Position numbers and translations under genes: made by a program
In this document: piece after piece, positions 18,092 to 64,000 of the stretch
Layout of the letters: the number at the start of each line of letters is the position of its first letter
Position numbering within the stretch: the first letter of the stretch is position 1
The notes under the pieces: generated by a model
What the model saw: only the letters and a program-made list of their open reading frames with translations
What the model was told of the DNA's origin: nothing
The model's database searches: none
Source: Morinoia aosen
Lineage: Eukaryota > Arthropoda > Malacostraca > Amphipoda > Talitridae
NCBI GenBank assembly: GCA_030386875.1
Contig: CM059580.1
Span: 2,384,838-2,448,837 of the forward strand
Length of the DNA stretch: 64,000 nt
Reading direction: 5' to 3'

Positions 18092-18425
18092 TACTCGTAT
18101 TAAGTGCTCCCTGGGGGAATGTGTGTGGTCCCGAGCGAAAAATTAGGTAGGGTATGTTTTTGTTGTAATAAAATAGGTTTTTGTTTTGTTACGGACCGTC
18201 TTTTTTCGGTTGACTGCTGTCCTGTTTTTCAGCACCTATTGCTTTCTTCTTCTACTTTTGTTTTGTTTCATGAACTTCTTTCTTAGCCTACTGTTTCTGT
18301 GCACCTTGTGCGTAGATTCCGCGTTCCCTCAACTCCATACTAAATGGTGCTTTCTTCCTTCCAGTCTTTGGATCGCCTTTGTTGCGGTTAGGGAGGATTA
18401 AACTAACTAATAATCTAATATAATC
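18092..18425 (+). mobile_element. DE1 copy 4
   Basis: It runs from CGTATTAAGTGCTCCCTGG through the core to CTAACTAATAATCTAATATA. Confidence 0.83.
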
Positions 18426-26054: not shown

Positions 26055-26415
26055 CGGGACCTCAGGGGGACACAACTATTGTATCTATGGGAAGTAGCGC
26101 TCCCAGGGGGAAGATGTGAGGTCCCCGAGCTGAGAGTTTGGTAGGCCTTCTCTATGTTGAAGTGAAATGGTTTTTATCAAGGACCATCTTTTTTTTTGGT
26201 TGACTGCTGACCTGTTTTTCAGCACCTATTGCATTCTTTTCCAACTTTTGTCTTGTTTCATGAACTTCTTGTTCAACTTACTGTTTTTGTGCACCTTGTG
26301 CATGGGTTCCGCGTTCCCTCAAGTTCACACTAAACGGTGTCTTCGTCCTTCCTCTCTTTGGATCGCTTTTGTTGCGGTTAGGGAGGCTCAAACTATAATA
26401 TATCTAATCTGTTCC
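26055..26415 (+). mobile_element. DE1 copy 8
   Basis: From GGGGGACACAACTATTGTAT through GCGCTCCCAGGGGGAAGATG and the core (here CTGCTGACCTG) to GGAGGCTCAAACT. Confidence 0.85.
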
Positions 26416-26636
26416 ATGTATACCTGTCATTAAATGAAAGATGTAAAATGTGTATTTTTTTCATTGTAATTCGTTCCACATTGCTATCATATTTTTGTAC
26501 GACAGGCTTTTTTTGTTTTTTCCACCTTTGGTTAACATCGGAGGGAATTTCAATGAATACATATATATTTATGTATATATATTGCCATTGTAAAACAAAT
26601 TTATTTTACAGATGTCCAGTTTACGGTTGGACAGCC

Positions 26637-30231: not shown

Positions 30232-30420
30232 GTAACTGCTGACGGAGGGCTGTTTACTCCTGACGAAGGACTTCGTACTGCTGACGAAGATCTACTCTCC
30301 TCCTGATGATACCACCCACTGCTGGCGAAAGGCGCTTTACTGCTGGCCGAGGGCATCCCACTGCTGGCCGAGGGCATCCCACTGCTGACGAAGGGCGTGT
30401 TACTGCTGACGAAGAGCTTC
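30232..30420 (-). repeat. 21-bp repeat of the terminal codons plus stop, 3' UTR of Rabaptin-5
   Basis: Reading the minus strand, CTTCGTCAGCAGTAACACGCC contains the last four codons (L R Q Q) and the stop. It is followed by about six degenerate copies (CTTCGTCAGCAGTGGGATGCC, CTCGGCCAGCAGTGGGATGC, and so on) through most of the 3' UTR. Confidence 0.85.
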
Positions 30421-30561
30421 GGAGAAGTAGGGCGTGGCCGTCTTCACCAGCAGGGTGTGGCAGACGTTGCACACGCGACACTGACGGTTGGACCGTCCCG
30501 CCGTGACTGTCTTGGAGACGCAGTCCCCGCAGAACACCCGTCCGCAGTGCCGGCAGTGGTG
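30400..30561 (-). CDS. RABEP1: Rabaptin-5 exon 18 (FYVE C-terminal half and stop)
   Basis: Acceptor CATCCGCCCACAG. 162 bases, phase 0, ending in TAA. The join restores RRKHHCRHCG, the PI3P-binding basic motif, followed by CGDC, CRVCNVC and HTLLVKTATPYFSEALRQQ. All eight zinc-ligand positions are present across exons 17 and 18. Confidence 0.95.
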   Translation of the reverse strand, partial: HHCRHCGRVFCGDCVSKTVTAGRSNRQCRVCNVCHTLLVKTATPYFSEALRQQ

Positions 30562-33500
30562 CTGTGGGCGGATGTGTTGGTCACATGCATTACGTTTTAT
30601 ATTCTATGTTATCTATAGGCCCATAATTGATGTACTTCATAAAACTATATTGTATACAGGGTAAGTATCCTCTAAGTGGTGGGGGTCCACAACCCTCTCT
30701 CCTCAAGGTAGTGTGGTATCTACGACGTCCCTCTTCTAGTTGGTGGGGGTCTACAACCCTCCCTCCTCTAGGTGGTGGAAACCACAACCCTCCCTCCTCT
30801 AGGTGGTGAGGGTCCACAACCCCCCCTCCTCTAGGTGGTGGGGGTCCACAACTCTCCCTCCTCTAGGTGGGGGGGAGTCTACAACCCCCCCTCCTCTAGT
30901 TCGGGGGGTCTACAACCCCCCCTCCTCTAGTTCGGTGGGTCTACAACCCCCCCTCCTCTAGTTCGGAGGGTCTACAACCCCCCCTCCTCTAGTTCGGGGG
31001 GTCTACAACCCCCCCTCCTCTAGTTCGGGGGGTCTACAACCCCTCCTCCTCTATTTGATGGGTGTCTACAAGTTCCCCCTCTTCTATTTGGTGGGGGTCT
31101 ACAACCCCCCCACCTTTATTTGGTGGGGGACTACAACCCCCCCTCCTATAAGTGGTGGGGGTGTACAACCCTCCCCTCCTTTAGGTGGTGGGGGCTGCAA
31201 CCCCCCCTCCTTTAGGTGGTGGGGGCTGTGACCTCCCTCCTTTAGGTGGTGGGGGCTGTGACTTCCCTCCTTTAGGTGGTGGGGACTGTTTCCCCCCTCC
31301 ATTAGGTGGTGGGGGCTGCAATCCCCCCTCCTCTAGGTGGTGGGGACTACAACCCCTCCTCCTCTAGGTGGTGGGGGCTACAACTCCCCCTCCTCTAGGT
31401 GGTGGGGGTCTACAACCCCCCCTCCTCTAGGTGGGAGGGTCTACACCCACTCCCCTCTAGGTGCGTGAGCTGCGACGCACGCTCTAGTTGACCTAATTAG
31501 GGCGGCCCTCAATACTCACTTTCCTCCTAACGGCGGAGAAGGTCTTCTTGCAGCTGTTGCAATCGTCCACGTCATCTTCGTGTTGCCAGCGTACCTGCAC
31601 ACACAGATTGGGTACGATGGTAATATTAAACTATTTTCTCCAGAGTTTTAACTCTTATTACCGAGAAAAACGGTTATGGTAATGAATTTGACCTGTTACG
31701 TACGTTTCTTCTGAATTATATCACGATTTGTCCTAAAAGAAGATTATCAGTAGGCATCATTTAACCCCGAAAACACTAGAATTACTATGCTTGATGGTAC
31801 TGGGCGTTAACTGTAACGAAAGCCACTGTGGAGTGAACCGTTTCCTAACCTCACTACCTGTACTTAAAGGTGTTATACCTAGTATTACTGAACTGTTTAT
31901 TATTTGTACCTAAATATGCCAGACAATAGCTAGTGCACAAAGTTGCAATAGATGCCATATGTATACTAATAAAACCTAAAGAACCACGTTGTTTCAATCC
32001 TCGTCTATTTGCCCGCAATGTAAAGATGTTATTACTAAAGGCTGGTGTAAGCCTCCTAAAGGATAAATAACTGGTCGCGTGAGAATACAATTTCACCCAA
32101 ATTGTAACTTTCCCTCCATGACAAAAAAATCCATCGACACCGATCACCGCTACCAAACCGAGCCATGCCCAAATATTGTTCATCATTAGCCCACCAGCCA
32201 TTACTCCTCAACCGTAACTATCTCACCCAGCAACAGCAAGACGCCCTGCCCCACAACCCCCCAGCAGGAGCGAGACGCCCCTCACCTCGCTGTCGCTCTG
32301 GCGGATCTTCTCGAGCTGGACTTGGAGGTCCTGGCTGAGCCTCACGAAGTCCCGCTGGGTCTGCTCCGAGAGCTCCAGGTCGTGCTGGAGGCTCTGCACC
32401 CGCGCCCTTTGTTCCCCCACCTCCCCCTCCAGCGCCCTCTGCGGGAGGTGCGAAAGAAGAACATTATGGATTACCACGTTTGTAAGAAAATTAATATAGA
32501 TTAACGCCTTTATAAGAAAAAAAATTATAGTTAAACACGTTTATAAGAAAAAATTATAGATTAACGCGTTTATAAAGGATTATAGATTCATACGTTTATA
32601 AAGGATTATAGATTAACACGTTTATAAAGGATTATAGATTAAGGCGCTTATAAGAACATTATAAATTACCGCGTTCACCGCCGTTGTAAACGGTTGTTTG
32701 GTTAGGTTGTAAGTAGCATAATGGGGAAATCGACCTTACTGCTCGAATAAAGTTTTATCCTTCAAAAGAAATACGATTACACGGTACTTTTCATCTGGTA
32801 AGATATCAGTTATTATAAAGAGATCGTAAAACAGATGAAATGTCATTCATTTATGCTGGCACGTGAATGAGCAATTGACATGTTGGTACACATGTGGCCC
32901 AACCCAACACGTGGGCAACGTGGTATGATTATAGGTTAATTTAAGCCTCCCTAACCGCTACAAAAAAGAGCGCAACGAAGAGAGGAAGAAGGAAGGCACC
33001 ATTTAGTATGGAGATAAGAGAATGCAGCAGCTATGCAGAAGGGACACAGAAACAACAAGTTGAGAAAGAAGTTCATGAAACAAGATAAAAGTTGAAGAAA
33101 AAAGTAGTAGGTGATGAAAAACAGGACAGCAGTCGGCCAAAAAAAAGGTGGTCCTTAACATAACAAAAAACATTTTATTTCAACAAAAAGGCCTACCTAA
33201 TTCTCAGCTTGGGCCCTCACACATTCCCCCTGGGAGCGTTTAAATTTCCATAAATTGAAACCAAAATGATATTGAACGTCATCATTATGTGTTGAACACT
33301 ACATTGATGATATGACATGCCAATATCAAGGGGCACCTTAGCAAGGGGATGACCCTCGATATCAAGGGGCACCTCAGCAAGGGGATGACCCTCGATATCA
33401 AGGGGCACCTCAGCAAGGGGATGACCCTCGATATCAAGGGGCACCTCAGCAAGGGGATGACCCTCGAGATCAAGGGGCACCTTAGCAAGAGGATGACCCT

Positions 33501-36500
33501 CGATATCAAGGGGCACCTCAGCAAGGGGATGACCCTCGATATCAAGGGGCACCTCAGCAAGGGGATGACCCTCGATATCAAGGGGCACCTCAGCAAGAGG
33601 ATGACCCTCGAGATCAAGGGGCACCTTGGCAAGAGGATGACCCTCGATATCAAGGGGCACCTCAGCAAGAGGATGACCCTCGATATCAAGGGGCACCTCA
33701 GCAAGGGGATGATCCTCGATATCAAGGGGCACCTCAGCAAGGGGATGACCCTCGATATCAAGGTACCTTAGCAAGGGGATGACCCTCGATATCAAGGAGC
33801 ACCTTAGCAAGGGGATGACCCTCGATATCAAGGGGCACCTTAGCAAGGGGATGACCCTCGATATCAAGGGGCACCTTAGCAAGAGGATGACCCTCGATAT
33901 CAAGGGGCACCTTAGCAAGAGGATGACCCTCGATATCAAGGGGCACCTTAGCAAGAGGATGACCCTCGAGATCAAGGGGCACCTTAGCAAGAGGATGACC
34001 CTCGATATCAAGGGGCACCTCAGCAAGGGGATGACCCTCGATATCAAGGGGCACCTCAGCAAGAGGATGACCCTCGATATCAAGGGGCACCTTAGCAAGA
34101 GGATGACCCTCGAGATCAAGGGGCACCTTAGCAAGAGGATGACCCTCGATATCAAGGGGCACCTCAGCAAGAGGATGACCCTCGATATCAAGGAGCACCT
34201 TAGCAAGAGGATGACCCTCGATATCAAGGGGCACCTTAGCAAGAGGATGACCCTCGAGATCAAGGGGCACCTTAGCAAGAGGATGACCCTCGATATCAAG
34301 GGGCACCTCAGCAAGAGGATGACCCTCGATATCAAGGGGCACCTCAGCAAGAGGATGACCCTCGATATCAAGGTACCTTAGCAAGGGGATGACCCTCGAT
34401 ATCAAGGAGCACCTTAGCAAGGGGATGACCCTCGATATCAAGGGGCACCTCAGCAAGGGGATGACCCTCGATATCAAGGGGCACCTTAGCAAGGGGATGA
34501 CCCTCGATATCAAGGGGCACCTTAGCAAGAGGATGACCCTCGATATCAAGGTACCTTAGCAAGGGGATGACCCTCGATATCAAGGAGCACCTTAGCAAGG
34601 GGATGACCCTCGATATCAAGGGGCACCTCAGCAAGGGGATGACCCTCGATATCAAGGGGCACCTTAGCAAGGGGATGACCCTCGATATCAAGGGGCACCT
34701 TAGCAAGGGGATGACCCTCGATATCAAGGAGCACCTTAGCAAGGGGATGACCCTCGATATCAAGGAGCACCTCAGCAAGAGGATGACCCTCGATATCAAG
34801 GGGCACCTTAGCAAGGGGATGACCCTCGATATCAAGGGGCACCTTAGCAAGAGGATGACCCTCGATATCAAGGGGCACCTCAGCAAGGGGATGACCCTCG
34901 ATATCAAGGCACACCTTAGCAAGAGGATGACCCTCGATATCAAGGGGCACCTTAGCAAGAGGATGACCCTCGATATCAAGGGGCACCTTAGCAAGAGGAT
35001 GACCCTCGATATCAAGGGGCACCTTAGCAAGGGGATGACCCTCGATATCAAGGGGCACCTTAGCAAGGGGATGACCCTCGATATCAAGGGGCACCTTAGC
35101 AAGAGGATGACCCTCGATATCAAGGGGCACCTCAGCAAGGGGATGACCCTCGATATCAAGGAGCACCTTAGCAAGGGGATGACCCTCGATATCAAGGAGC
35201 ACCTCAGCAAGAGGATGACCCTCGATATCAAGGGGCACCTTAGCAAGAGGATGACCCTCGATATCAAGGGGCACCTTAGCAAGAGGATGACCCTCGATAT
35301 CAAGGGGCACCTTAGCAAAAGGATGACCCTCGATATCAAGGGGTACCTTAGCAAGAGGATGACCCTCGATATCAAGGGGCACCTTAGCAAGAGGATGACC
35401 CTCGAGATCAAGGGGCACCTTAGCAAGAGGATGACCCTCGATATCAAGGGGCACCTCAGCAAGAGGATGACCCTCGATATCAAGGGGCACCTCAGCAAGA
35501 GGATGACCCTCGATATCAAGGTACCTTAGCAAGGGGATGACCCTCGATATCAAGGAGCACCTTAGCAAGGGGATGACCCTCGATATCAAGGGGCACCTCA
35601 GCAAGGGGATGACCCTCGATATCAAGGGGCACCTTAGCAAGGGGATGACCCTCGATATCAAGGGGCACTTTAGCAAGAGGATGACCCTCGATATCAAGGG
35701 GCACCTTAGCAAGGGGATGACCCTCGATATCAAGGGGCACCTTAGCAAAAGGATGACCCTCGATATCAAGGGGCACCTTAGCAAGAGGATGACCCTCGAT
35801 ATCAAGGGGCACCTTAGCAAGAGGATGACCCTCGATATCAAGGGGCACCTTAGCAAGAGGATGACCCTCGATATCAAGGGGCACCTTAGCAAGAGGATGA
35901 CCCTCGATATCAAGGGGCACCTTAACAAGGGGATGACCCTCGATATCAAGGGGCACCTCAGCAAGGGGATGACCCTCGATATCAAGGGGCACCTTAGCAA
36001 GGGGATGACCCTCGATATCAAGGGGCACCTTAGCAAGGGGATGACCCTCGATATCAAGGAGCACCTTAGCAAGGGGATGACCCTATCAAGGAGCACCTCA
36101 GCAAGAGGATGACCCTCGATATCAAGGGGCACCTTAGCAAGGGGATGACCCTCGATATCAAGGGGCACCTTAGCAAGAGGATGACCCTCGATATCAAGGG
36201 GCACCTCAGCAAGGGGATGACCCTCGATATCAAGGCACACCTTAGCAAGAGGATGACCCTCGATATCAAGGGGCACCTTAGCAAGAGGATGACCCTCGAT
36301 ATCAAGGGGCACCTTAGCAAGAGGATGACCCTCGATATCAAGGGGCACCTTAGCAAGGGGATGACCCTCGATATCAAGGGGCACCTTAGCAAGGGGATGA
36401 CCCTCGATATCAAGGGGCACCTTAGCAAGAGGATGACCCTCGATATCAAGGGGCACCTCAGCAAGGGGATGACCCTCGATATCAAGGAGCACCTTAGCAA

Positions 36501-51500: not shown

Positions 51501-54500
51501 ATCCGTTATTATCAACGGCTGTGATTAGATGAAACCAGGTTTCCGTTATTATCAATAATCGTGATAAGCAGTAACCTGGCTCCCGTTATTATCAATAATT
51601 GATTATTTGGAGCCTAGTTTTCGTTATGTTATTATCAATTATTGTGATTCGTAGAAATCTGGTCTCGGTCCATCAATAACAGTTAAATAAAACAAATTAA
51701 GCTCAATTTATATCATCGCAATAACAATGGCATACAAGGCCCCACCAATAACTATTAAATAACAATAAATAATCTTGGCAACTAAACTTAATTCAAATTA
51801 TATAAAAAAATAAAAGCAGCCAAGCCCCCATCAACAATATTTACATTATTGAATTATAATTATAATTAAATTAAATTGAATTTTCAATATTAAATTAGCT
51901 CATCACTCACACACGGCAGCCTCGGCGTCATCTTCCTTCCCCTGGAGAAGCAAAAACACAATTATTATTGTTAAAACAAATACACAATCAATGCCAAGAA
52001 TCAAACATTTTCAGTTAATTGGATAAATAAAATTCACACATTAAACACCGCAGTGCAAAATTCACAGGCAGGAAACTCACATTCAATGACAAAAAAAAAT
52101 TATTAACTCAATTTTGGTCCCCTTAGTTAATAAAGTATAAGAAAATTCACCATTCAATAACGCGGGGCAAAATTCACAGCCGAAATATGGCAAAAAAAAA
52201 AGTCCAAAATTTTCGGCGGAACATCGGTCCAAACCCTAAACAAGTGAACGTTAATTTTACCTATTTATATAGTTATAAATCCCCGTAGTGTTGTTATAGG
52301 TAACTAGTGACGGCCGGGCAACTAGTGACGGCCGGGCAACTAGTGACGGCCGGGCAACTAGTGACGGCCGGGCAACTAGTGACGGCCGGGCAACTAGTGA
52401 CGGCCGGGCAACTAGTGACGGCCGGGCAACTAGTGACGGCCGGGCAACTAGTGACGGCCGGGCAACTAGTGACGGCCGGGAAACTAGTGACGGCCGGGCA
52501 ACTAGTGACGGCCGGGCAACTAGTGACGGCCGGGCAACTAGTGACGGCCAGGCAACTAGTGACGGCCGGGCAACTAGTGACGGCCGGGCAAATAGTGACG
52601 GCCGGGTAAATAGTGACGGCCGGGCAAATAGTGACGGCCGAGCAACTAGTGACGGCTGGGCAACTAGTGACGGCCGGGCAACTAGTGACGGCCGAGCAAC
52701 TAGTGACAGCCAGGCAACTAGTGACACTCACCAGTGACGTCTCCCCCCGCTCAGAAGCAGCGCCTGTCGATGGTCACGGAATTAGACACTAGTGGTCAGT
52801 GGCAGTCATGGTAGAGGCAGCAGTTACTGCTGAATTAAAATACCCATCATGTTATTCACAAGTTCATCATTACCAATGATGGTGATCATATTAATCTTTT
52901 TAAGTAGTTCCTAAGTTCTTCATTAACAATGAAAATGATAATAATCATTTCGATAATGATGATACTAAAGTGGACAATGATGATAATCAACGGGACAATG
53001 ATGATAATCAACGGGACAATGATGATAATCAACGGGACAATGATGATAATCAAAGGGACAATGATGATAATCAAAGGGACAATGATGATAATCAAAGGGA
53101 CAATGATGATAATCAAAGGGACAATGATGGTAATCAAAGGACAAAGATGATAATCAAAGGGACAAAGATGATTATCAAAGCATAGGAGATAAAGCTCCCG
53201 CACGCCTATCTATAGATGAGGGACCTAACAGTATTACCCTAGGGGCGATAGTCTCATCAGTACAGGATCCATAACTCCCGAAGGCCTTCCTATAGCCGAG
53301 GGACCTCACAGTATCCCCCATAATCCTACGCCTCCTACAGGACGCACCCTTCTCCGGGAGCTGCACTTCCTCGTACACGTTCTCCTCCTCCTCGTCAGGA
53401 GTGCCGCGCCCTTTGGGGGACGCCCTTTGCGGGTCCTGAACCCCAGGGTCTCCTGTGGGGGTCCCCTCGTCGAGGGGTTTGTTGACGTTCTCTGCGGGGG
53501 GGGAAGGGGGGTTAAATGAGGGGTGGAAATAGTGGGTATAAGGGGGTCAACTCAGTGATTTTTTATTCATGGACCGATTGTTCTGAAATTTGCACACTGT
53601 TGGTAATTTTTAACACATTTCCTGCGAAGTGACCCACCGGTGGTCACTTTGGTGATTTACACTGTGCTGCTGACCCACCTGCAGTCATTAACCCAACTTT
53701 TATAAAAACTCAATGAAAGCTAAATGAAGGCCCACTCCAGTTAATGTTTGCTATTTTCAAAGTTGATTACCACAGTTGACTTTAAATTTGAATTAAATAT
53801 CAAACTTCAGTTCAACCCATCGCAGTTACCGTGTTAAATATAAACACGTTTTGCTCGTGTGATTTTGTCGATTTTGGTCATAGTTTTTGAGAAAATGGGA
53901 GATATTATGTTTATATATCATTTTCTGACATTTTGATGTAATAAAAGTCTATGAGTTTATATGCTATGTCACGAACTAAAACAGTTTTAGAATCCTAGTA
54001 ACATTTTAACAGAAAAAAGAGGGCAGATTTTCACTTTTCTTTTTTTGATAAATATTTACTTTGAACTGTGATATAAAATTGGAAGAATTGACAAATTATT
54101 TTGATAAAAATGTTAGAAGTATTCCAAACGGTCTTTCGTTTTTTCTAGCATGAAAACTCATTGACTTCTATTCTTTTGAAATGCCTGAAAAAATAAAAAA
54201 AAAAAAATATTCCCCATTACCTCAATAACTAAAGCGGAAATCGAAAAAATCATACTAGCAAAATGTGTTTCTTTTTAAACATTACAAACACTGTGCACAT
54301 TTCAGAACAATCGGTCCACAAATAAAAAAAATCACCGAGTTGACTCCTTATAAAGAACTAGGAAACAATTATCTTTGTGGTGTGTTTGTTTCACCAGCTG
54401 GTACAGACACCCAGCAGCTGGTACACTCACCCAGCAGCTGGTACACTCACCCAGCAGCTGGTACACTCACCCAGCAGCTGGTACACTCACCCAGCAGCTG

Positions 54501-57500
54501 GTACACTCACCCAGCAGCTGGTACACTCACCCAGCAGCTGGTACACTCACGCAGCAGCTGTTACAGACACCCAGCAGCTGGTACAGACACCCAGCAGCTG
54601 GTACAGACACCCAGCAGCTGGTACAGACACCCAGCAGCTGGTACAGACACCCAGCAGCTGGTCCAGACACCCAGCAGCTGGTACAGACACCCAGCAGCTG
54701 GTACACTCACCCAGCAGCTGGTACACTCACCCAGCAGCTGGTACAGACACCCAGCAGCTGGTACAGACACCCAGCAGCTGGTACAGACACCCAGCAGCTG
54801 GTACACTCACCCAGCAGCTGGTACAGACACCCAGCAGCTGGTACAGACACCCAGCAGCTGGTCCAGACACCCAGCAGCTGGTCCAGACACCCAGCAGCTG
54901 GTCCAGACACCCAGCAGCTGGTACAGACACCCAGCAGCTGGTACAGACACCCAGCAGCTGGTACAGACACCCAGCAGCTGGTACAGACACCCAGCAGCTG
55001 GTACAGACACCCAGCAGCTGGTACAGACACCCAGCAGCTGGTACAGACACCCAGCAGCTGGTACAGACACCCAGCAGCTGGTACAGACACCCAGCAGCTG
55101 GTACAGACACCCAGCAGCTGGTACAGACACCCAGCAGCTGGTACACTCACCCAGCAGCTGGTACACTTACCCAGCAGCTGGTACACTCACCCAGCAGCTG
55201 GTACACTCACCCAGCAGCTGGTACACTTACCCAGCAGCTGGTACACTCACCCAGCAGCTGGTACACTCACCCAGCAGCTGGTACACTCACCCAGCAGCTG
55301 GTACACTCACCCAGCAGCTGGTACACTCACCCAGCAGCTGGTATACACACCCAGCAGCTGGTACACTCACCCAGCAGCTGGTACACTCACCCAGCAGCTG
55401 GTACACTTACCCAGCAGCTGGTACACTCACCCAGCAGCTGGTACACTCACCCAGCAGCTGGTACACTCACCCAGCAGCTGGTACACTCACCCAGCAGCTG
55501 GTACACTCACCCAGCAGCTGGTACACACACCCAGCAGCTGGTACACTCACCCAGCAGCTGGTACACTCACCCAGCAGCTGGTACACTCACCCAGCAGCTG
55601 GTACACACACCGAGCAGCTGGTACACTCACCCAGCAGCTGGTACACTCACCCAGCAGCTGATACACTCACCCAGCAGCTGATACACTCACCCAGCAGCTG
55701 GTACACTCACCCAGCAGCTGGTACACCCACCCAGCAGCTGGTACACTCACCCTGCAGCTGGTACACACACTCGACAGCTGGTACACTCACCCAGCAGCTA
55801 GTACACTCACCCAGCAGCTGGTACAGACACCCAGCAGCTGGTACAGACACCCAGCAGCTGGTACACACACTCAGCAGCTGGTACACTCACCCAGCAGCTG
55901 ATACACACACTCAGCAGCTGGTACACACACGGAGCAGCTGGTACATTCACCCAGCAGCTGGTACACTCATCCAGCAGCTGGTACACTCACCCAGCAGCTG
56001 GTACACTCACCCAGCAGCTGGTACACACACCCAGCAGCTGGTACACTCACCCAGCAGCTGGTACACACACCCAGCAGCTGGTACACTCACCCAGCAGCTG
56101 GTACACTCACCCAGCAGCTGGTACACTCACCCAGCAGCTGGTACACACACCCAGCAGCTGGTACACACACCCACCAGCTGGTACACACACCCAGCAGCTG
56201 GTACACACACCCAGCAGCTGGTACACACACCCAGTAGCTGGTACACTCACCCAGCAGCTGGTACACACCCAGCAGCTGGTACACACACCCAGCAGCTGGT
56301 ACACTCACCCAGCAGCTGGTACACTCACCCAGCGGCTGGTACACACACCCAGCAGCTGGGCCACACAGCCAGCAGCTGGGACACTCACCCAGCAGCTGGT
56401 AAACTCACCAAGCAGCTGGTACACTCACCCAGCAGCTGGTACACTCACCCAGCAGCTGGTACACACACTCAGCAGCTGGAACACTCACCCAGCAGCTGGA
56501 GCAGCTGGTCAGGGGCCAGCAGCTGGAGCAGCTGGTCCACAAGCAGCTGGTACACTCACCCAGCAGCTGGAGCAGCTGGTCAGGAGCCAGCAGCTGGTGC
56601 AGCTGGTCCACAAGCAGCTGGTGGCGACGCTCACACCTGAGCAGCTGGTCGTTGGCCCGTCGCGCCTGTGACTTCAGCGCCGCTTCTGCCTGTAAATAAC
56701 CTTGTTCTTTACTCTTTCTTATTCAGTCTAGCATGTCCACTTATTCCATCTTCGTAAATTGTTATTCGTTATTCATTACAATATCTTTGTTTATATCATC
56801 TCTGTTATTTATTCTACCCTAGTTACTTTGTTAATTATTCTATCTTTGTATTTCATTCCATCTTTGTTTATCTATCACACAGTCATGTGGCTGGCGCCCC
56901 CAGCCACATGACTGCCCCATCAGCCACCTGGCTGCCCCCCCCAGCCACATGGCTGCACCTTATCCAGTCCCCTCACCCTGCGGAAGGCGGCGCTGTGGGC
57001 GGTGGCGGCCGCGAGCTGCTCCGTCAACGACTCCTTCTGCGCCTTCAGCAGTCCTGAGTACAGCTCCAGGTCCGACAGGCTCGCCTGGGGGGAGGGGAGG
57101 TTATGCTGGGGTTGTGGGGGTTGGGTTAAAATGAAAAAATAGTCATGGAGGGTTATAGGGGGAGAGAGGGGGGTTGGGGTGGGTTATAGGGAAGGAAGGG
57201 TTACAGGAAGGATTACGAGGGGTTATGGGGAAGGGTAATAATGTAAAAGTGGTTGTGGGGTGTTTTAGGGTGGGTAATAGTGAAGGGAGGGTTACAGGTT
57301 GTGGGGGTTACGGGATTATGGGATGGGTTATAGTGAATAAAGGGGTACAGATGGTTGTGGAGGGATTTACGGGATGAACAGGGAAGCGTTACATGACGGT
57401 GGACGGGAGGGGTTGAATAAAAGGTATTCTGATGTCTCAGTTGCAAAAAGGCAGGAGGCTTAAATTGTGCGTGCCTAATATGAATTCGTTGTAAAATAAA

Positions 57501-60434
57501 AAAGATAGCAAAGATAGCTGATTTAAAAATCATTTTAATGCGTGAATGCTTCAGCCTAAAGCTCAACCAACACCTGTAAAAGCAAATTCAAATAGCGAAA
57601 TAGAAGCAAATCAACGCGTGAATTCGCTGTTTCTAACAGACATGGAGAACATTTGTCTCAGTTTGGCCACAGGTATATGAGCGAGCGCCAGGATCTCAAG
57701 ACGAGGCAGCACAGAAAGAACCGCGTGCTCGCCCCCCAGTTTCGGCCATGCAGCGGAGACCTCCACAAAAACGTGATCCATAATGTGACAAATCAGGAAG
57801 CTACGTGAGACCGACCAACACCAGGTTGATAATTCTTATGAGTTTGATTTTGTTCGACCCGTGCAGTTAGACGGGGCATCGGGCAAAGCTTGAGTGACCT
57901 CGTGTGGTATCTCCACCCTTACTCGCTCCCCCCCCCCCCTTATAATCGTGCCCCCCTTTTTGGAGGGTGTCTTCCGAGGAGAATAGCAGTCTCATTGACT
58001 TCTAATTTTTTTAAATGTCCGAAAAAATTCAACAAACATTTCCCATTATCTCAAAAATTAAGGCGAAAATCGAAAAAGTCACACAAGCAAAATGCGTGTC
58101 TTTTCAAAAATTAAAATTCGTCTTTGTCCAGAAAGCAATAGAAGCGCTAGTTAAATGAGAGGAATTTAATATATATGGGGATTACAAGAGTTTAATAGAC
58201 ACAAAATTCCTGTAAATGGAGGTTTAATGTCGGATATATTAATAAAATAGGGGAACTAATATCGAGAGCCATGTGACATCAATCCCTTCATCTTTAAAGG
58301 CACCATTTGTTGTAGAATTAGGGGAATCTATGCACGCGGTGTCCCCACCTCAAGTCAGGAAGTCTATAAATCAAGACAAAAATTGAAGAAGAAAGTAGTC
58401 GGTGCTGAAGAACAGGACAGCAGTCAACCAAAAAAAAGATGGTCTGCAACAAAACAAAAAACTCGTATTTCAAGAAAGGGGAGGAATAACTAACCTCAAG
58501 TTTAAGACCCCACATACTCCCCCTGGGATCACTAGTTCTCATTGATACAATAATTGTATCCACTGAGACCTGACGTCATGGCATCTAGCAACATAGCAAC
58601 ACTGCTAGCTTCAAATCTGGCACCACTATTGGCCTAGCGACATGTCGCAATGGTGAATTCATCCAGTGCGTTTGAAACAAAGCCTTCCTATTTGCTGGCC
58701 AAACCCACTAAGTTTGAAATGAAGCCTTCCTATTGGCTGGCCGAACCTAGTGCATTTAAAATAAAGCCGTTCTATTGGCTATTGTGGCTATGAACGTTGG
58801 AAATAGAGGGGAGAGAAGCGAGGCGACTGGAGTCTCACCTCCTGCGCCCCCACGCGCTGCTCTCCCCCCTCCCCTGCACTGAGAGGCAGCAGCACCTCCT
58901 CCAGCATGCTGCTCCGGTCTCCGCCTCCTGCAGCACCTCCGTCGGTAGAGCCCTGCTCAAACAGCGGCTCGTAATGAGCGTGTCGTGGACATGTTCCTGT
59001 CGCGTGGCGTGCGTGTTGTGGACATGCTTCTTGTGACATGAATGTACCTGCCACGATTTACTTCTGAAATGAGCGTGGGTACACACGACACAACCACCAC
59101 AACATACATTAAAACACAACACAACCACCACCACAGCACACACCACCCAACAACCAATACACACACAACAAAACAACACCACAACACACAACACAACCAC
59201 CACTACCACAGCACACACCACCCAACAACCAAAACACACACAACAAAACAATATCACAACACACACACACACACACAACACACCAGCAGGTCGTCCATGG
59301 CGGTGCCCTCTGTGGTGTCAGAGGACTCGTCGTTGAAGGCAGCGTTCGTCTCCCCTCCTGACGGCGGCCCTGCAGGAAGAAGACAAAGGGGGCGGCGATT
59401 TATAAGGGCACAAAAAATCACGTCTCCATCAAAATTCTTCGTTCACAATAACAAACATATCACTAGCAGATACAAAACAAAAACCCATAGCAATAAGAAA
59501 GCGTACCGCTGAGGTCGGTGGTGGTGACGTCACTGCCGCTGGTGGTGGAGGAGGTGGTGGGGGGCGGGGGTGAGGTGGGGGGCGCGGACCCACTGAGGGA
59601 GGGCACGTGTTTAGCGATGATGGACTTGGTGATGCCAGACAGCAGGCCTGGGCTCAGTAGGCCGGCACCCGCGCCGGAGGGAGGAGGTGTAGCCGCGCGC
59701 TGTTGCTCCAGCTCCTCCTGCCCGTGCGTGCGTCAGTAATGTTATTAAACTGCATTAATCAATGCTCAAATAAGTATAACATCGAAGGGTGTGCGCAAAA
59801 TCAAAAGAAGGCATTCGTTCCAATAATCCTCCTTGTATTTTAATTAGTAAAAACGCTCGACATAAGAAGGGACGCTCAGTAGGCCGGCACCCGCGCCGGA
59901 GGGAGGAGGTGCTGCTACAACTCCTCCTGCGCGTGCGTGCGTCAGTAATGAAATTAACCTTGCTTAATTAATGCTCAAATATATATATATATATATATAA
60001 TATCAAAGGGTGTTACCATAATTCAAAGAAGCTGCTAGTTACAACAATCCTACTCGTATCTTAATAAGTAAAAACGATCGACAGAAGAACAGAAGCTCAG
60101 TACGCCGGCAACAGCGCCGGGGAGAGGTTCATGTGGAGTCTGTGCTCCCACTCGAGCATCTCAGAAATATTCGTACAAGACTCACCAAGTCATTGTTCAT
60201 TTTTTCAACCGATTTATAAAGCTACGCAGAATAGAGAGAGCATGATTGCATCTAACTATTAATATTAAAACCATTACTAGTCACATTCAAATGATCTCCT
60301 ATGGAGATAGTACAGCACCTGGAGCTGGTGGTAGAGCTGGAGTATCTTCCTCTTGTCTGCCTCGAGTCGCCTGTTCTCTCGCTGCAGCTGCTGCTGCCTC
60401 TCTCGCGCCTCCGCCTCGGCCGCCTCCGCCTCCT
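30400..60434 (-). CDS. RABEP1: Rabaptin-5 (Rab GTPase-binding effector protein 1) with C-terminal FYVE finger; 18 exons, N-terminus missing
   Basis: Joining 18 exons gives about 725 codons with uninterrupted frame and consistent phases. Blocks match human Rabaptin-5 as I recall it: SDLELYSGLLKAQKESL (human TDLEMYVAVLNTQKSVL), RANDQLL (KANDQFL), VVSASEW (LVSETEW), LPHSVEELQLVLLRLKED (a human LRELVLKYRED block) and DFVRLSQDLQVQLEKIRQ (human DFVKLSQTLQVQLERIRQ). These are the coiled coils and the Rab5-binding C-terminal region. After them comes a complete FYVE finger (WQHEDDVDDC, RRKHHCRHCG, four CxxC pairs) that human Rabaptin-5 lacks. Rabaptin-5 with Rabex-5 activates Rab5 on early endosomes; FYVE binds PI3P. 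Exons upstream of 60434 were not found; they may lie beyond 64 kb. Introns are filled with arrays that abut splice sites. Confidence 0.95.
30660..31445. repeat. Imperfect 28-31-bp repeat in Rabaptin-5 intron 17
   Basis: The unit is CCCTCCTCTAGGTGGTGGGG followed by GTCTACAAC, about 26 degenerate copies. The left part has G-run variants. It does not clearly resemble either flanking junction, unlike most other arrays in this gene. Confidence 0.92.
31520..31594 (-). CDS. RABEP1: Rabaptin-5 exon 17 (FYVE N-terminal half)
   Basis: Acceptor CTGTGTGTGCAG, donor AAA|GTGAGT. 75 bases, phase 0 to 0. Encodes VRWQHEDDVDDCNSCKKTFS, then AVRRK: the W motif and first zinc CxxC of a FYVE domain. Confidence 0.94.
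31595..32285 (-). other. Rabaptin-5 intron 16, no repeat array
   Basis: Unique-looking AT-moderate sequence with GT/AG ends. Open frame 31854-32201 on the minus strand has no recognisable domain. Confidence 0.65.
32286..32438 (-). CDS. RABEP1: Rabaptin-5 exon 16 (Rab5-binding region)
   Basis: Acceptor CACCTCCCGCAG, donor GAG|GTGAGG. 153 bases, phase 0 to 0. Encodes LELSEQTQRDFVRLSQDLQV, then QLEKIRQSDSE, the most conserved segment of Rabaptin-5, at the C-terminal Rab5-binding coil. Confidence 0.95.
32465..32670. repeat. Short tandem repeat (AAGGATTATAGATTAACACGT type)
   Basis: About seven degenerate copies of TTATAGATTAACGCGTTTAT (28-35-bp step). They start next to the acceptor side of exon 16. 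Confidence 0.75.
32935..33250 (-). mobile_element. DE1 copy 9, in Rabaptin-5 intron 15, same strand as the gene
   Basis: Minus-strand copy from CTCCCAGGGGGAATGTGTGA (about 33235) to GAGGCTTAAATTAACC (about 32935). The core is CGACTGCTGTCCTG. Confidence 0.85.
33312..37960. repeat. 36-bp minisatellite, about 129 copies, in Rabaptin-5 intron 15
   Basis: The plus-strand unit is GATATCAAGGGGCACCTTAG, then CAAGAGGATGACCCTC. Variation falls at a few sites (TTAGC/TCAGC, AAGAGG/AAGGGG, GGGGCA/GGAGCA, GATATC/GAGATC). The exon 15 border at 37988-38015 (GATATAAAGGCGCACCTTAG, then CAAGGAGCA) aligns to the unit, so the unit appears to be a copy of that junction. The unit is 12 codons and stop-free in several frames, so the 200-920-codon frames here are artefacts. 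Confidence 0.97.
38002..38125 (-). CDS. RABEP1: Rabaptin-5 exon 15
   Basis: Acceptor ATGACCCCCCAG, donor CTTGCTAAG|GTGCGC. 124 bases, phase 2 to 0. Encodes EAVGRLQASLGPEPPTEE, a Q4 run, then KTLELHALKEQLNDMLLAK. The junction is the seed of the 36-bp array. Confidence 0.9.
38126..38395 (-). other. Rabaptin-5 intron 14, acceptor-proximal part: GGGGTTATGA low-complexity
   Basis: Degenerate repeats of GGGGTTATGAGGGGAGTAA-like sequence on the plus strand, about 15 copies with no fixed period. Confidence 0.7.
38392..38665 (-). mobile_element. DE1 copy 10, in Rabaptin-5 intron 14
   Basis: Minus-strand copy with core TGACTGCTGTTCTG and CTTTTCAGCACC. It lacks the TCTAA tail. Confidence 0.84.
38675..38862. 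repeat. Donor-abutting repeat of Rabaptin-5 exon 14
   Basis: Minus strand: CTCAG|GTGGAGACACTTGCCC, then CCTTTGTTTTGTCCC, then CTCTGGTGGGGTCACTTGCC twice to three times. About four units of 35-45 bp begin at the donor. Confidence 0.82.
38860..39038 (-). CDS. RABEP1: Rabaptin-5 exon 14
   Basis: Acceptor CGCCCCCACCAG, donor CTCAG|GTGGAG. 179 bases, phase 0 to 2. Encodes ELQLVLLRLKEDVITATVAR, matching the vertebrate LRELVLKYRED region, then a long coil. An internal GTAAGC (after GCCCTT) is a possible alternative donor. Confidence 0.93.
39255..39665 (-). mobile_element. DE1 copy 11, in Rabaptin-5 intron 13
   Basis: Full-length minus-strand copy from GGGGGACACAACTATTGTAT (about 39665) to GATTAGATTATAATC at 39275. 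It keeps both the 5' block and the tail. Confidence 0.88.
39931..40257. repeat. 22-bp minisatellite abutting the exon 13 donor
   Basis: Minus-strand unit GGCTGGGTGGCGCCCTTTGT plus GT, about 14 copies. The first 30 intron bases after the donor (GTGGGTCTTGCCGTGCCCTT, then TGTGTCTGGG) read like a diverged first unit. Confidence 0.93.
40258..40351 (-). CDS. RABEP1: Rabaptin-5 exon 13
   Basis: Acceptor GTGGTGTGCAG, donor GAG|GTGGGT. 94 bases, phase 2 to 0. Encodes VQRENAKLAGKHLKKARL, then LQEELIDLPHSVE, matching the LQKDNDSLQGKH ... LPDT region of vertebrate Rabaptin-5. Confidence 0.93.
40352..40780 (-). other. Rabaptin-5 intron 12, non-repeat part
   Basis: AT-rich sequence between the acceptor of exon 13 and the array that begins near 40785. 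No feature recognised. Confidence 0.65.
40785..40980. repeat. 20-bp repeat abutting the exon 12 donor
   Basis: Minus-strand unit GGAGCAGGTGGGTCCCAACT, about nine copies, some with GGGGGCCAACT. Each unit contains GCAG|GTGGGT, close to the real donor ACAG|GTGGGG. Confidence 0.92.
40977..41122 (-). CDS. RABEP1: Rabaptin-5 exon 12
   Basis: Acceptor CCCGTTGCAG, donor ACAG|GTGGGG. 146 bases, phase 0 to 2. Encodes EAEWGTQLQEATRLHDALL ... REANERHIN. Confidence 0.92.
41390..43415. repeat. 40/41-bp minisatellite copied from the exon 11 3' end and donor, about 48 copies
   Basis: Minus-strand unit: GAGCAGGTGGAGCAGTACCA, then GCAGAAG|GTGAGGGGCAGCT and the link to the next copy. This is the last roughly 30 coding bases (EQVEQYQQK) plus the first roughly 11 intron bases of exon 11. 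Shortened units lacking the QYQQK part occur in between. Every full unit carries an intact AAG|GTGAGG. Confidence 0.96.
43390..43548 (-). CDS. RABEP1: Rabaptin-5 exon 11
   Basis: Acceptor ATGCTCTGCAG, donor AAG|GTGAGG. 159 bases, phase 0 to 0, 53 residues of coiled coil (MAELQTQLQDEQQQKQ ... NDRWLEQVEQYQQK). The last roughly 30 bases plus the donor form the unit of the adjoining array. Confidence 0.92.
43566..43793 (-). mobile_element. TTAA-bounded MITE family M1, copy 3, in Rabaptin-5 intron 10
   Basis: Plus-strand TTAACACATTTCCTGCGACG to TTCACAGTTAACGCATTAA, with GACCCACCGGTGG and AATGAAAGCTAAATGAAGGC shared with copies 1, 2 and 4. Its last TTAA is the first TTAA of the next element. Confidence 0.76.
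43790..44931. mobile_element. TTAA-bounded non-autonomous DNA element T1, copy 1 (about 1.14 kb)
   Basis: Ends are TTAAGGGGGTCCTCC and GGAAGACCCCCTTAA, 15-bp inverted repeats with one mismatch. The interior is AT-rich and made of repeated and inverted modules such as CAAGGATTCTAAAACTGTC, then TTTGGTTTTGTTCTAGCAT. No transposase frame. TTAA ends suggest piggyBac-type mobilisation in trans. Confidence 0.8.
44985..45655 (+). mobile_element. tRNA-derived SINE with internal 56-bp expansion, in Rabaptin-5 intron 10
   Basis: The tRNA-like head has A-box TGGCCGAGTGG (44997) and B-box GGTTCGAATCCC (45042). The SINE body then starts, and its GTTGGGAAAAGGGAGAACTC ... CCCAGGTGTTCTCCCC segment is repeated ten times. 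It is opposite to the gene. Confidence 0.83.
45075..45640. repeat. 56-bp tandem repeat, about 10 copies
   Basis: Unit AACTCGGCCACAATTGCCCA, then CTCTACCCAGGTGTTCTCCC, then CGTTGGGAAAAGGGAG. It is SINE body sequence, single-copy in the SINE at 1.9 kb. Confidence 0.95.
45795..46090 (-). mobile_element. DE1 copy 12, in Rabaptin-5 intron 10
   Basis: Minus-strand copy whose 5' end (GGTCCCGAGCTGAGAG) lies about 30 bases from the donor of exon 10. The core is intact. Confidence 0.86.
46120..46235 (-). CDS. RABEP1: Rabaptin-5 exon 10
   Basis: Acceptor CTCCATGCCAG, donor AAG|GTACTG. 116 bases, phase 1 to 0. Encodes VVSASEWTATLRQLRHLT, then CTSCPSLQSK. The VSASEW and CxxC pieces match the vertebrate VSETEW ... 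CDMC region. Confidence 0.87.
46262..50060. repeat. 46/43-bp minisatellite with higher-order structure, about 85 copies, in Rabaptin-5 intron 9
   Basis: Unit ACAACTCTCACTACACTGCC, then GACACTGCACAGCTGGCAGA, then CGTACG; a 43-bp form lacks three bases near ACGTACAACTC. The array ends about 30-45 bases upstream of the exon 10 acceptor. Blocks of variant units recur 1356 bp apart. Open frames of up to 1352 codons are artefacts. Confidence 0.96.
50255..51316. mobile_element. TTAA-bounded non-autonomous DNA element T1, copy 2 (1062 bp), in Rabaptin-5 intron 9
   Basis: Perfect 16-bp ends TTAAGGGGATCATCCG / CGGATGATCCCCTTAA. The interior has GTTAGAAATGTTTCAAGG, ATTCTAAAACTGGTTTTGG in direct and inverted copies (about 50383, 50850 inverted, 51068). 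It shares modules with the element at 43790. No coding capacity. Confidence 0.85.
51317..51910 (-). other. Rabaptin-5 intron 9, donor-proximal part
   Basis: AT-rich. 51500-51660 holds about three copies of CCGTTATTATCAATAATTGTG (about 58-bp step). No array touches the exon 9 donor. Confidence 0.65.
51911..51941 (-). CDS. RABEP1: Rabaptin-5 exon 9 (micro-exon, 31 bases)
   Basis: Acceptor TTGCTTCTCCAG, donor GTGT|GTGAGT. 31 bases, phase 0 to 1, encoding GKEDDAEAAV. Exons 8 and 9 together convert phase 1 to phase 1, exactly what exons 7 and 10 require. Confidence 0.65.
51942..52295 (-). other. Rabaptin-5 intron 8, acceptor-proximal part
   Basis: AT-rich sequence between exon 9 and the 18-bp array. 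Short dispersed motifs (AAAATTCACA) recur, with no array. A TATATAG-rich patch lies at 52262-52280. Confidence 0.6.
52299..52731. repeat. 18-bp minisatellite abutting the exon 8 donor, about 24 copies
   Basis: Minus-strand unit GCCCGGCCGTCACTAGTT. The exon 8 end and first intron bases (ACGTCACTG|GTGAGTGTCA, then CTAGTTGCC) resemble the unit (CGTCACTAGTTGCC), and divergence is highest next to the donor. Confidence 0.95.
52732..52763 (-). CDS. RABEP1: Rabaptin-5 exon 8 (micro-exon, 32 bases)
   Basis: Acceptor CCATCGACAG, donor CTG|GTGAGTG. 32 bases, phase 1 to 0, encoding GAASERGETSL across the border. Support is GT/AG borders and phases that mesh with exons 7 and 9. The 18-bp array begins directly after the donor. 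No homology supports so short a segment. Confidence 0.65.
52967..53172. repeat. 21-bp repeat in Rabaptin-5 intron 7, about 10 copies
   Basis: Plus-strand unit ACAATGATGATAATCAAAGG plus G. The left units have CAACGGG. Confidence 0.92.
53190..53345. repeat. Diverged duplication next to the exon 7 donor
   Basis: AACTCCCGAAGGCCTTCCTA, then TAGCCGAGGGACCTCACAGTAT and its relative AGCTCCCGCACGCCTATCTA, then TAGATGAGGGACCTAACAGTAT form two tandem copies of about 70 bases between the donor and the 21-bp repeat. Confidence 0.75.
53348..53491 (-). CDS. RABEP1: Rabaptin-5 exon 7
   Basis: Acceptor CCCCCCCCGCAG, donor AAGG|GTGCGT. 144 bases, phase 1 to 1. Encodes a charged, probably disordered linker (ENVNKPLDEGTPTGDPG ... 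PDEEEENVYEEVQLPEK). Confidence 0.85.
53537..54352. mobile_element. Terminal-inverted-repeat element related to T1 (about 0.8 kb), in Rabaptin-5 intron 6
   Basis: Left end TATAAGGGGGTCAACTCAGT, then GATTTTTTATTCATGGACCG, and the inverted right end (CGGTCCACAAATAAAAAAAA, then TCACCGAGTTGACTCCTTATA) form inverted repeats of about 60 bases with a few mismatches. It contains an M1 MITE and T1-like modules (AGTTTTAGAATCCTAG, CTAGCATGAAAACTCATTG). Confidence 0.78.
53610..53837 (-). mobile_element. M1 MITE copy 4, nested in the element at 53537
   Basis: TTAACACATTTCCTGCGAAG to GCAGTTACCGTGTTAA, colinear with the copy at 43566. It interrupts the larger element, so it inserted later. Confidence 0.75.
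54401..56560. repeat. 20-bp minisatellite straddling the exon 6 donor, about 108 copies
   Basis: Minus-strand unit CAGCTGCTGG|GTGAGTGTAC: ten exon-like bases and ten intron-like bases with a consensus 5' splice site in nearly every unit. A variant block (54560-55140) has GTCTGTAC instead of GTGAGTGTAC's second half (CAGCTGCTGGGTGTCTGTAC) and so loses the donor. Confidence 0.97.
56560..56689 (-). CDS. RABEP1: Rabaptin-5 exon 6 (donor inside the 20-bp array)
   Basis: Acceptor GGTTATTTACAG. It encodes AEAALKSQARRANDQLL, matching the vertebrate KANDQFL block. The obvious donor CTCAG|GTGTGAG (exon end 56637) would leave phase 2, which no acceptor of exon 7 can accept. Reading on into repeat-derived sequence (CERRHQLLVDQLHQLLAPDQ, LLQLL) reaches CTGG|GTGAGTG at 56560, phase 1, which fits exon 7. 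I therefore draw the exon to 56560; other in-array donors or an unseen mini-exon remain possible. Confidence 0.68.
56690..56976 (-). other. Rabaptin-5 intron 5 with a small donor-proximal repeat
   Basis: 56870-56955 holds four copies of CAGCCACATGGCTGCCCCCC-like sequence (about 20-26 bp) close to the exon 5 donor. The rest is T-rich with TATTCATTCTATCTTTGTTTA-like repeats. Confidence 0.75.
56977..57084 (-). CDS. RABEP1: Rabaptin-5 exon 5
   Basis: Acceptor CCTCCCCCCAG, donor AGG|GTGAGG. 108 bases, phase 0 to 0, 36 residues. It contains SDLELYSGLLKAQKESL, one of the strongest matches to vertebrate Rabaptin-5. Confidence 0.92.
57090..57415. repeat. Degenerate GGTTATAGGGA-type low-complexity DNA in Rabaptin-5 intron 4
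   Basis: Plus-strand GGGTTATAGGG, GGGTTACAGGAAGG and similar 12-25-bp motifs, next to the acceptor side of exon 5. Resembles the G-rich sequence of intron 14. Confidence 0.75.
57416..58284 (-). other. Rabaptin-5 intron 4, central part
   Basis: Mostly unique-looking. 57985-58115 is a fragment of the T1 family (CATTGACTTCTAATTTTTTT, then AAATGTCCGAAAAAATTC; GAAAATCGAAAAAGTCACAC). No exon recognised. Confidence 0.6.
58285..58575 (-). mobile_element. DE1 copy 13, in Rabaptin-5 intron 4
   Basis: Minus-strand copy from TGGATACAATTATTGTATC (about 58563) to ACAAATGGTGCC (about 58305). Core TGACTGCTGTCCTG, then TTCTTCAGCACC. Diverged, no tail. Confidence 0.8.
58640..58800. repeat. Three copies of a CTTCCTATTGGCTGG motif
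   Basis: GTTTGAAACAAAGCCTTCCT, then ATTTGCTGGCC occurs three times with a step of about 46-50 bases. Not otherwise recognised. Confidence 0.65.
58839..58952 (-). CDS. RABEP1: Rabaptin-5 exon 4
   Basis: Acceptor CTGTTTGAGCAG, donor GAG|GTGAGA. 114 bases, phase 0 to 0. Encodes GSTDGGAAGGGDRSSMLEEV and continues LLPLSAGEGGEQRVGAQE. The frame is also open upstream (HYEPLFEQ), so an acceptor a little further 5' is possible. Confidence 0.75.
59080..59280. repeat. CA-rich low-complexity sequence abutting the exon 3 donor
   Basis: ACACAACCACCACCACAGCA, then CACACCACCCAACAACCA in two copies (about 70-bp step), then a CA microsatellite ending at the donor (GTGTGTTGTGTGTG on minus). Confidence 0.8.
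59284..59369 (-). CDS. RABEP1: Rabaptin-5 exon 3
   Basis: Acceptor TCTTCCTGCAG, donor CTG|GTGTGTTG (non-optimal). 86 bases, phase 1 to 0. Encodes an acidic linker, PPSGGETNAAFNDESSD then TTEGTAMDDLL. Confidence 0.82.
59507..59717 (-). CDS. RABEP1: Rabaptin-5 exon 2
   Basis: Acceptor GCACGGGCAG, donor G|GTACGC. 211 bases, phase 0 to 1. It starts EELEQQRAA, continuing the coil, then becomes a P-, S-, T- and G-rich linker (SGAGAGLLSPGLLSGITKSI, SAPPTSPPPPTTSSTTSGSD). Its 5' end with the acceptor is duplicated at 59875-59940. Confidence 0.88.
59653..60125. repeat. 222-bp tandem duplication covering the 5' end of Rabaptin-5 exon 2
   Basis: CTCAGTAGGCCGGCACCCGC recurs at 59653, 59875 and, diverged, at 60096. 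Copy 2 contains an exon-like 5' end with its acceptor (GTGCGTGCGCAG|GAGGAG), but the minus frame hits TAG at the fourth codon. Copy 3 is truncated. Confidence 0.9.
60319..60434 (-). CDS. RABEP1: Rabaptin-5 exon 1 of those seen
   Basis: Acceptor CATACCCCCACAG, donor CAG|GTGCTG. 116 bases, phase 1 in and 0 out, encoding 38 residues of coiled coil (EAEARERQQQLQREN, then RRLEADKRKILQLYHQLQ). The acceptor-side sequence is tandemly duplicated upstream (60435-60720). Confidence 0.88.
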
Positions 60435-60720
60435 CTGTGGGGGTATGGTACTGACTTATGTTGTGCTCTATTGTACTATGTTGTGTTGTGCTCTGTTGTG
60501 GTATGTTGTGTGTGTTGTACTCTGTGGGGGTATGGTACTGACTTATGTTGTGCTCTGTTGTACTATGTTGTGTTGTGCTCTGTTGTGGTATGTTGTGTGT
60601 GTTGTACTCTGTGGGGGTATGGTACTGACTTATATTGTGCCCTATTGTACATGTTGTGTTGTGCTCTATTGTGCTCTGTTGTAGTGTGTTGTGGTAGGTC
60701 GTGTGCGTTGTACTCTGTTG
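60433..60720. repeat. 87-bp repeat carrying the exon 1 acceptor, about 3 copies
   Basis: CTCTGTGGGGGTATGGTACT, then GACTTATGTTGTGCTC starts at 60433, 60520 and 60607. On the minus strand each copy contains CATACCCCCACAG|AG, the 3' splice site of exon 1. The extra copies precede the real one in the transcript. Confidence 0.93.
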
Positions 60721-63870: not shown

Positions 63871-64000
63871 ACTTCAGAAACGCTCTTTGTCACACAAGTG
63901 TACAGCAATGACGATCGATAAAAAACCCGATCAACAAATGAAGAACATCCGCTAAAGTAAAACCTAAACCCCTGTTCAATTTACACATGGAATCAATTTC

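Follow-up and report, generated by a model that had tools for sequence, protein, structure and literature searches.

Minisatellites whose repeat unit spans a splice junction have been described in lancelets, where these 'mirages' differ from gene to gene: unit length is 10-72 bp for Adh3 and 150-160 bp for BflGb6, of which two haplotypes have 6 and 3 units; splicing of the lancelet globins was checked by RT-PCR (PMC3087553, PMC3902484, excerpts of both). Tandem duplication of AGGT segments has also been described as a route to intron gain (Rogers 1989; Gao and Lynch 2009, as cited in an excerpt of PMC3087553). Among the matches listed from the open-access literature, no boundary-spanning minisatellites outside lancelets were found, excerpts of a Daphnia paper contained no splice-site term (PMC3152781), and those of a C. 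elegans paper offered nothing of use (PMC4039745). Here we describe a cluster of donor-associated arrays, with four boundary-derived mirages of extreme length, in a Rabaptin-5 gene of the amphipod Morinoia aosen that lies in a repeat hot zone; the cluster is real and statistically solid. The initial annotation of this locus knew of no named phenomenon that matches it exactly. The lancelet mirages do match, and the Rabaptin-5 arrays are this known kind of structure in unusually extreme form.

As in lancelets, the Rabaptin-5 units span exon-intron boundaries (at four of 19 donors and at the acceptors of exons 1 and 2), the units of the four spanning donor junctions are unrelated between introns, and, to judge from the lancelet excerpts, duplication can affect 5' as well as 3' boundaries. 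Unit lengths of 20-41 bp at the donors and ~209-222 bp at one acceptor compare with the excerpted lancelet lengths given above. Unlike the lancelet mirages, the arrays occur in a crustacean, are biased towards donors and comprise many independent donor arrays in one gene, with 30-123 junction copies per donor against the 6 and 3 units in the excerpts on BflGb6. Lancelet globin splicing was seen by RT-PCR according to the same excerpts, whereas the Rabaptin-5 arrays are known from DNA alone. Lancelet mirages may extend to arthropods. Potato RdRp is reportedly a case of intron gain by tandem duplication, and the Rabaptin-5 arrays resemble AGGT-type intron gain in that a segment holding a splice signal is tandemly duplicated; unlike that process, the copies lie within the introns of the Rabaptin-5 model, which gives no sign of a new intron. 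Ordinary hypervariable minisatellites are tandem, GC-rich and regionally clustered, as are the Rabaptin-5 arrays, but the starts of the latter are tied to donors and four of their units derive from coding sequence plus donor.

The window, that is to say the whole 64,000-nucleotide stretch analyzed (C25:2384838-2448837 of a genome of 1.99 Gb in 29 contigs), contains the 3' part of a Rabaptin-5 (RABEP1-like) gene, with 18 exons at 30232-60720 on the minus strand and a C-terminal FYVE domain, based on an in-frame model, Pfam and orthologues. Two further 5' exons lie in the flank past position 64000, and the full model has 20 exons, 807 codons plus the terminal stop, and GT-AG ends at every intron. 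Window exons 1-18 are lettered a-q, with a 32-nt exon h0 (52732-52763) as exon 8, which puts the frame right between exons 7 and 9. The 18 exons of the initial annotation agree with those of this model. A Pfam search with the translation lacking exon 8 returned Rab5-bind (5.8e-32) and FYVE (5.3e-16), and EEA1 and Rabaptin-5 were among 15 matching PDB sequences. The best two of 59 matching proteins each align over 55% of the query: one, encoded on a 6.9-kb contig, at 61% identity, and the other, Hirondellea gigas Rabaptin, from an amphipod, at 56%. By tblastn, 15 of 20 exons match amphipod-like orthologues; exons 3, 4, 8, 9 and 10 are supported by frame and splice signals, exon 10 also lying within the Rab5-bind match. 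The predicted product carries a Rab5-bind coiled coil followed by FYVE, as in invertebrate orthologues, and identifies the gene as a FYVE-containing Rabaptin-5 orthologue on the minus strand. GC3 is 0.847 in this gene, against a mean of 0.629 for 24 myosin exons (sd 0.158, range 0.40-0.97); because the value lies within the myosin range it gives no firm sign of a recombination-rich zone, and a recombination-rich region around the gene is only a guess.

To describe array placement, tandem arrays with a TRF score of at least 50 and a period of at least 10 were collected inside the 19 introns, where 34 arrays occupy 58% of intron length, and were compared with shuffles in which arrays were moved at random within their own introns. 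The first array lies within 30 bp of the donor in nine of 19 introns (shuffle mean 1.65; 0 of 5000 shuffles as high) and no more than 60 bp away in 12 (3.20; 0 of 5000), so that the earlier view of chance as unlikely stands against shuffled positions. The excess is retained in the window's 17 introns (seven donors within 30 bp, 1.57 expected; 2 of 5000 as high), in the 14 introns that follow orthologue-matched exons (seven against 1.26; 0 of 5000) and upon removal of the four introns with junction-derived units (six of 15 against 1.35; p 0.0004). G-richness of the sense strand characterizes 10 of 12 donor-proximal arrays (p 0.039) versus 11 of 22 other intronic arrays, which weakly supports a G-rich sense strand as an R-loop or slippage element at donors.

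Inspection of individual donors, all on the minus strand, places a GT-rich array at +12 of exon 3 (c, 59284-59369; array 59081-59271), a 21-bp-unit array at +20 of exon 5 (e, 56977-57084; array 56888-56956), an 18-bp-unit array at +6 of exon 8 (array 52302-52725; no junction copy at 15/20), an array with units of 20, 31 and 51 bp at +5 of exon 12 (k, 40977-41122; array 40780-40971) and a 22-bp-unit array at +14 of exon 13 (l, 40258-40351; array 39929-40243). Further arrays start at 0 of exons 6 and 11 and at +56 of exon 15. These eight are the part that TRF places within 60 bp of the ten donor arrays claimed in the initial annotation (exons 3, 5, 6, 7, 8 and 11-15); those of exons 7 (+167) and 14 (+110) lie beyond that distance, and the exon 15 array had been put only 30 bases from its donor. 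Two donors unlisted there also have arrays, at +58 of exon 4 (d, 58839-58952; array 58663-58780) and, with a 31-bp unit, at +56 of exon 17 (p, 31520-31594; array 30668-31463). A 46-bp-unit intronic array of 83.5 copies (46282-50051, minus strand) ends 46 bp before the exon 10 acceptor and is not a junction array.

Each donor junction was represented by a 20-mer probe of eight exon and 12 intron bases, and copies matching at 15 or more of 20 positions were counted in each intron. Four junctions are copied within their own intron: 30 times at the model's second exon, which lies outside the window, 104 times at exon 6, 42 times at exon 11 and 123 times at exon 15. At this threshold none of the four has a copy in any other intron, which upholds the claim of several independent births in one gene, and the remaining 15 of 19 donors have no copy in their own intron. 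The array at the second-exon donor was invisible to the initial annotation and is independent confirmation. Relatedness of array units beyond the four spanning junctions was judged by eye. At exon 6 (f, 56560-56689), a 20-bp unit, CCAGCTGCTGGGTGAGTGTA, follows 71-bp copies (array 54395-56622, minus strand); at exon 11 (j, 43390-43548), the 41-bp unit contains the exon end CAGCAGAAG followed by gtgagg (array 41397-43420, minus strand); and at exon 15 (n, 38002-38125), the 36-bp unit contains CTTGCTAAG followed by gtgc (array 33323-37945, minus strand). That a unit contains its own exon's end had been proposed for exons 6, 11, 12, 14 and 15, and is borne out for 6, 11 and 15; homology to the exon 12 and exon 14 junctions was rejected, their best copies reaching only 13/20 and 14/20, respectively. 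Twelve donors have an array within 60 bp, and at eight of them no junction copy reaches 15/20, so birth from the junction is demonstrated for four only. The junctions of exons 3, 9 and 12 have one, two and one matches at 15/20 in other introns, presumably by chance.

The junction copies retain GT in 295 of 299 cases, and 105 of 299 (53 of 104 at exon 6) reach or exceed the genuine donor's score in a simple position matrix with values set from general knowledge. Units vary inside arrays, with for example 94-96% match in the 20-, 36- and 18-bp arrays. An earlier and weaker test, in which exon-end 24-mers were compared with introns, gave a mean of 17.7 for own introns and 13.8 for permuted ones (4 of 20000 as high), a signal coming mainly from exons f, j and n. 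A test independent of the gene model used 85 unit consensuses from 93 arrays, eight from loci L002-L004 being left out, and scored donor likeness (at least 6) of each unit versus its reversed form: in the gene region 9 versus 7 of 26 qualified, at window positions 1-30000 0 versus 4 of 19, and in control stretches 11 versus 5 of 40. In several frames, the 36-bp array that follows exon 15 (33217-38048, minus strand) runs for hundreds of codons with no stop, but in exon 15's own frame a stop codon comes after the exon end and before the array.

Acceptors behave differently from donors, and the proposed link to exon borders stands for donors and not for borders in general. By shuffling, two of 19 acceptors have an array within 30 bp (1.66 expected) and four of 19 within 60 bp (3.19 expected), near-null counts with no clear acceptor bias. 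Addition of an exon 2 duplication missed by TRF gives three acceptors within 30 bp (p 0.28 under uniform births), and acceptor-spanning cases show no excess (two against 0.86 expected, p 0.21). Duplications of this kind do occur. An 87-bp unit repeated three times adjoins the acceptor side of exon 1 (a, 60319-60434; array 60433-60692, minus strand) and ends 2 nt inside the exon, and 21-bp repeats cover the last codons, the stop codon and the start of the 3' UTR in exon 18 (q, 30400-30561; repeats 30339-30414, minus strand); the initial annotation was correct on both. Absent from it was the acceptor-side duplication at exon 2 (b, 59507-59717; 59652-60132, minus strand), with copies at a spacing of 209-222 bp, two of the acceptor-bearing piece (83%) and three of a 38-nt exon-start piece (100%, 74%). 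Copy number is two to three on the acceptor side and up to a hundred in donor arrays, which is in keeping with the idea that extra acceptors would compete with the genuine site and extra donors would not. Exon starts are slightly more similar to the introns directly upstream of them than to permuted ones (14.8 versus 13.9; 907 of 20000 as high), a faint likeness that counts against a donor-only reading. An apparent acceptor copy upstream of the model's second exon was rejected as chance (20/60 identity on either side).

The gene sits in a region unusually rich in arrays. By TRF, arrays make up 49% of the window and 62% of the 10 kb that follow it, and the share in the three 10-kb stretches after that is 2-7% apiece; in 16 control stretches, taken at the 20-Mb mark on contigs C1-C16, the mean is 10.7%. 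Over the left 30 kb of the window the share is 44.7%, and the open-frame listing for it identified no gene. A long open frame at window 3-1358 (plus strand) looks like the final part of a reverse transcriptase/RNase H protein of LINE type. A short translated motif, LTAVLFFSTYCFLLLLLSCFMNFF, was seen by eye with its variants at about seven places in the window: about 18177-18398 and 26161-26430 on the plus strand, and 32954-33179, 38394-38597, 39398-39589, 45732-46034 and 58321-58575 on the minus strand. It is probably a dispersed repeat element in introns and between genes. The regional zone probably accounts for the high number of arrays in the gene, and donors would account for their position within it.

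Our preferred explanation, which we hold to be reasonably probable, is that the Rabaptin-5 arrays are mirage-type minisatellites, born as independent local duplications in tandem, located at 5' splice sites or immediately beyond them, and later expanded. The locus would belong to a region with rapid turnover of arrays, in which small duplications are common. A donor-spanning duplication would be nearly silent because the original exon-side donor survives and is still chosen, with the extra copies ending up in the intron; frame and orthologues suggest such use of the first donor. The first duplication may also be promoted by R-loops or slippage where donors have a G-rich sense strand. One competitor holds that duplications arise uniformly and that selection removes exonic ones, leaving survivors that mimic border births. 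It accounts for arrays stopping at exons, would expect donor-spanning duplications to be silent, and agrees with the acceptor numbers. Its own simulation, however, with births anywhere in the gene and wholly exonic ones lost, yields 1.77 donors within 30 bp versus the nine seen (0 of 20000) and 0.89 donor-spanning births versus four junction-derived arrays (p 0.011, the two criteria not being identical), and excluding the first 6 and last 40 bases of each intron from the shuffles leaves the null mean unchanged at 1.66. As the sole explanation in this gene, selection of this kind is strongly disfavoured, and we consider it very unlikely. A possible but doubtful alternative is that arrays grow from GC-rich seeds, which in AT-rich introns are mainly exon edges. 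Donors as such would have no special role, and acceptors would escape because an intact branch point and pyrimidine tract are needed there. GC content follows this expectation, at 0.554 in arrays, 0.392 in unmasked intron and 0.661 in exons, as does the mean GC of donor-proximal arrays (0.57) versus other intronic arrays (0.40). Yet a low-GC array (0.28) also lies at a donor, that of the model's first exon, and the acceptor side adjoins equally GC-rich exons but has arrays at the null rate rather than a deficit (two versus 1.66). Misplaced exon borders, or repeats expanded by the assembly, have almost no likelihood as the source of the pattern: five of 20 exons do lack a tblastn orthologue match at the cut used, but all 20 join in one frame with GT-AG ends, 15 match orthologues, the donor excess persists on introns after orthologue-matched exons alone, units differ within arrays, and unrelated arrays recur at many donors.

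The evidence on donor clustering comes from one gene, and a further alternative is that donors are mutational hot spots throughout the genome in this lineage, through transcription-coupled, R-loop or splicing-linked breaks, which we regard as unlikely. The G-rich sense strand of donor-proximal arrays favours it, as do genome-wide counts of three tandem MAGGTRAGT motifs, with 10,242 matches versus 2,863, 1,328, 3,098, 2,994 and 1,851 for permuted motifs, though taken singly the motif has fewer matches than its backwards control (66,239 versus 84,740). Related counts were 956 versus 552 in the control for CAGGTAAGT, with a ~40-bp unit among the first 100 matches listed; 6,730 versus 917 for AAGGTAAGT, with recurring spacings of 25, 28 and 38 bp among the first 100 matches listed; and 4,593 versus 3,601 for AGGTGAGT alone. 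Arrays of the ~40-bp unit with CAGGTAAGT look like a dispersed family, occurring for example at C2:21059092, C2:64874641, C3:4709475 and C3:9090792. Such listings suggest that the counts are inflated by dispersed repeat families, and the first 22.3 Mb of C1 hold 11 distinct donor arrays (two pairs probably related) versus 9, 1 and 4 in three controls. Given these families and the few distinct arrays, the genome-wide motif counts are not relied on. An acceptor-like motif is in excess too (6,054 versus 1,782), against a poor control in which CA/AG steps are compared with AC/GA steps.

Myosin genes also argue against donor hot spots throughout the genome. Thirty myosin-head exons were examined with 1.5 kb on either side, their ends being approximate as they are taken from HMM match ends. 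In 24 of them, no donor end has an array within 30 bp and two have one within 150 bp, and the acceptor sides have one and four, respectively. Across all 30 loci a donor is predicted in 27, and 0 of these 27 has an array within 60 bp. The six left out of the 24 are L032, L035, L037, L040 and L045, with stops in the match, and L024, with several matches in one frame. L045 has a long array whose end is 19 bp from an acceptor downstream that is weakly predicted, and at L050 an array lies 45 bp before an acceptor. Loci L035 and L036 have one donor-junction match each at 15/20 or better, and L034, L035 and L039, which lie in a cluster of similar exons on C1, have one or two acceptor matches. The Rabaptin-5 gene is not typical of the genome. 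The still broader proposal, in which a transcription- or R-loop-linked process makes 5' splice sites seed minisatellites across the genome in this crustacean lineage, several times as often as other positions do, and fills introns with decoy donors for the spliceosome to disregard, appears slightly less likely again than hot spots as such. If the donor bias were genome-wide, splice donors would be among the places where minisatellites start, and a simple route to intron growth would follow. The single gene is itself a natural experiment on how the spliceosome still picks the first donor in an intron with about 100 copies of it.

Two minor observations were made elsewhere in the genome. At C9:53913532-53918718, four myosin-head matches share an open frame of 1743 codons over ~5 kb, which is odd for a multi-exon gene. 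Protein kinase matches are often paired, with near-identical scores and 0.04-15 Mb apart on one contig (for example C4:94828907/C4:95729789, C2:33433296/C2:37466519 and C17:70002512/C17:72125128), and we interpret these pairs as recent segmental duplications or as haplotype copies left in the scaffolds.
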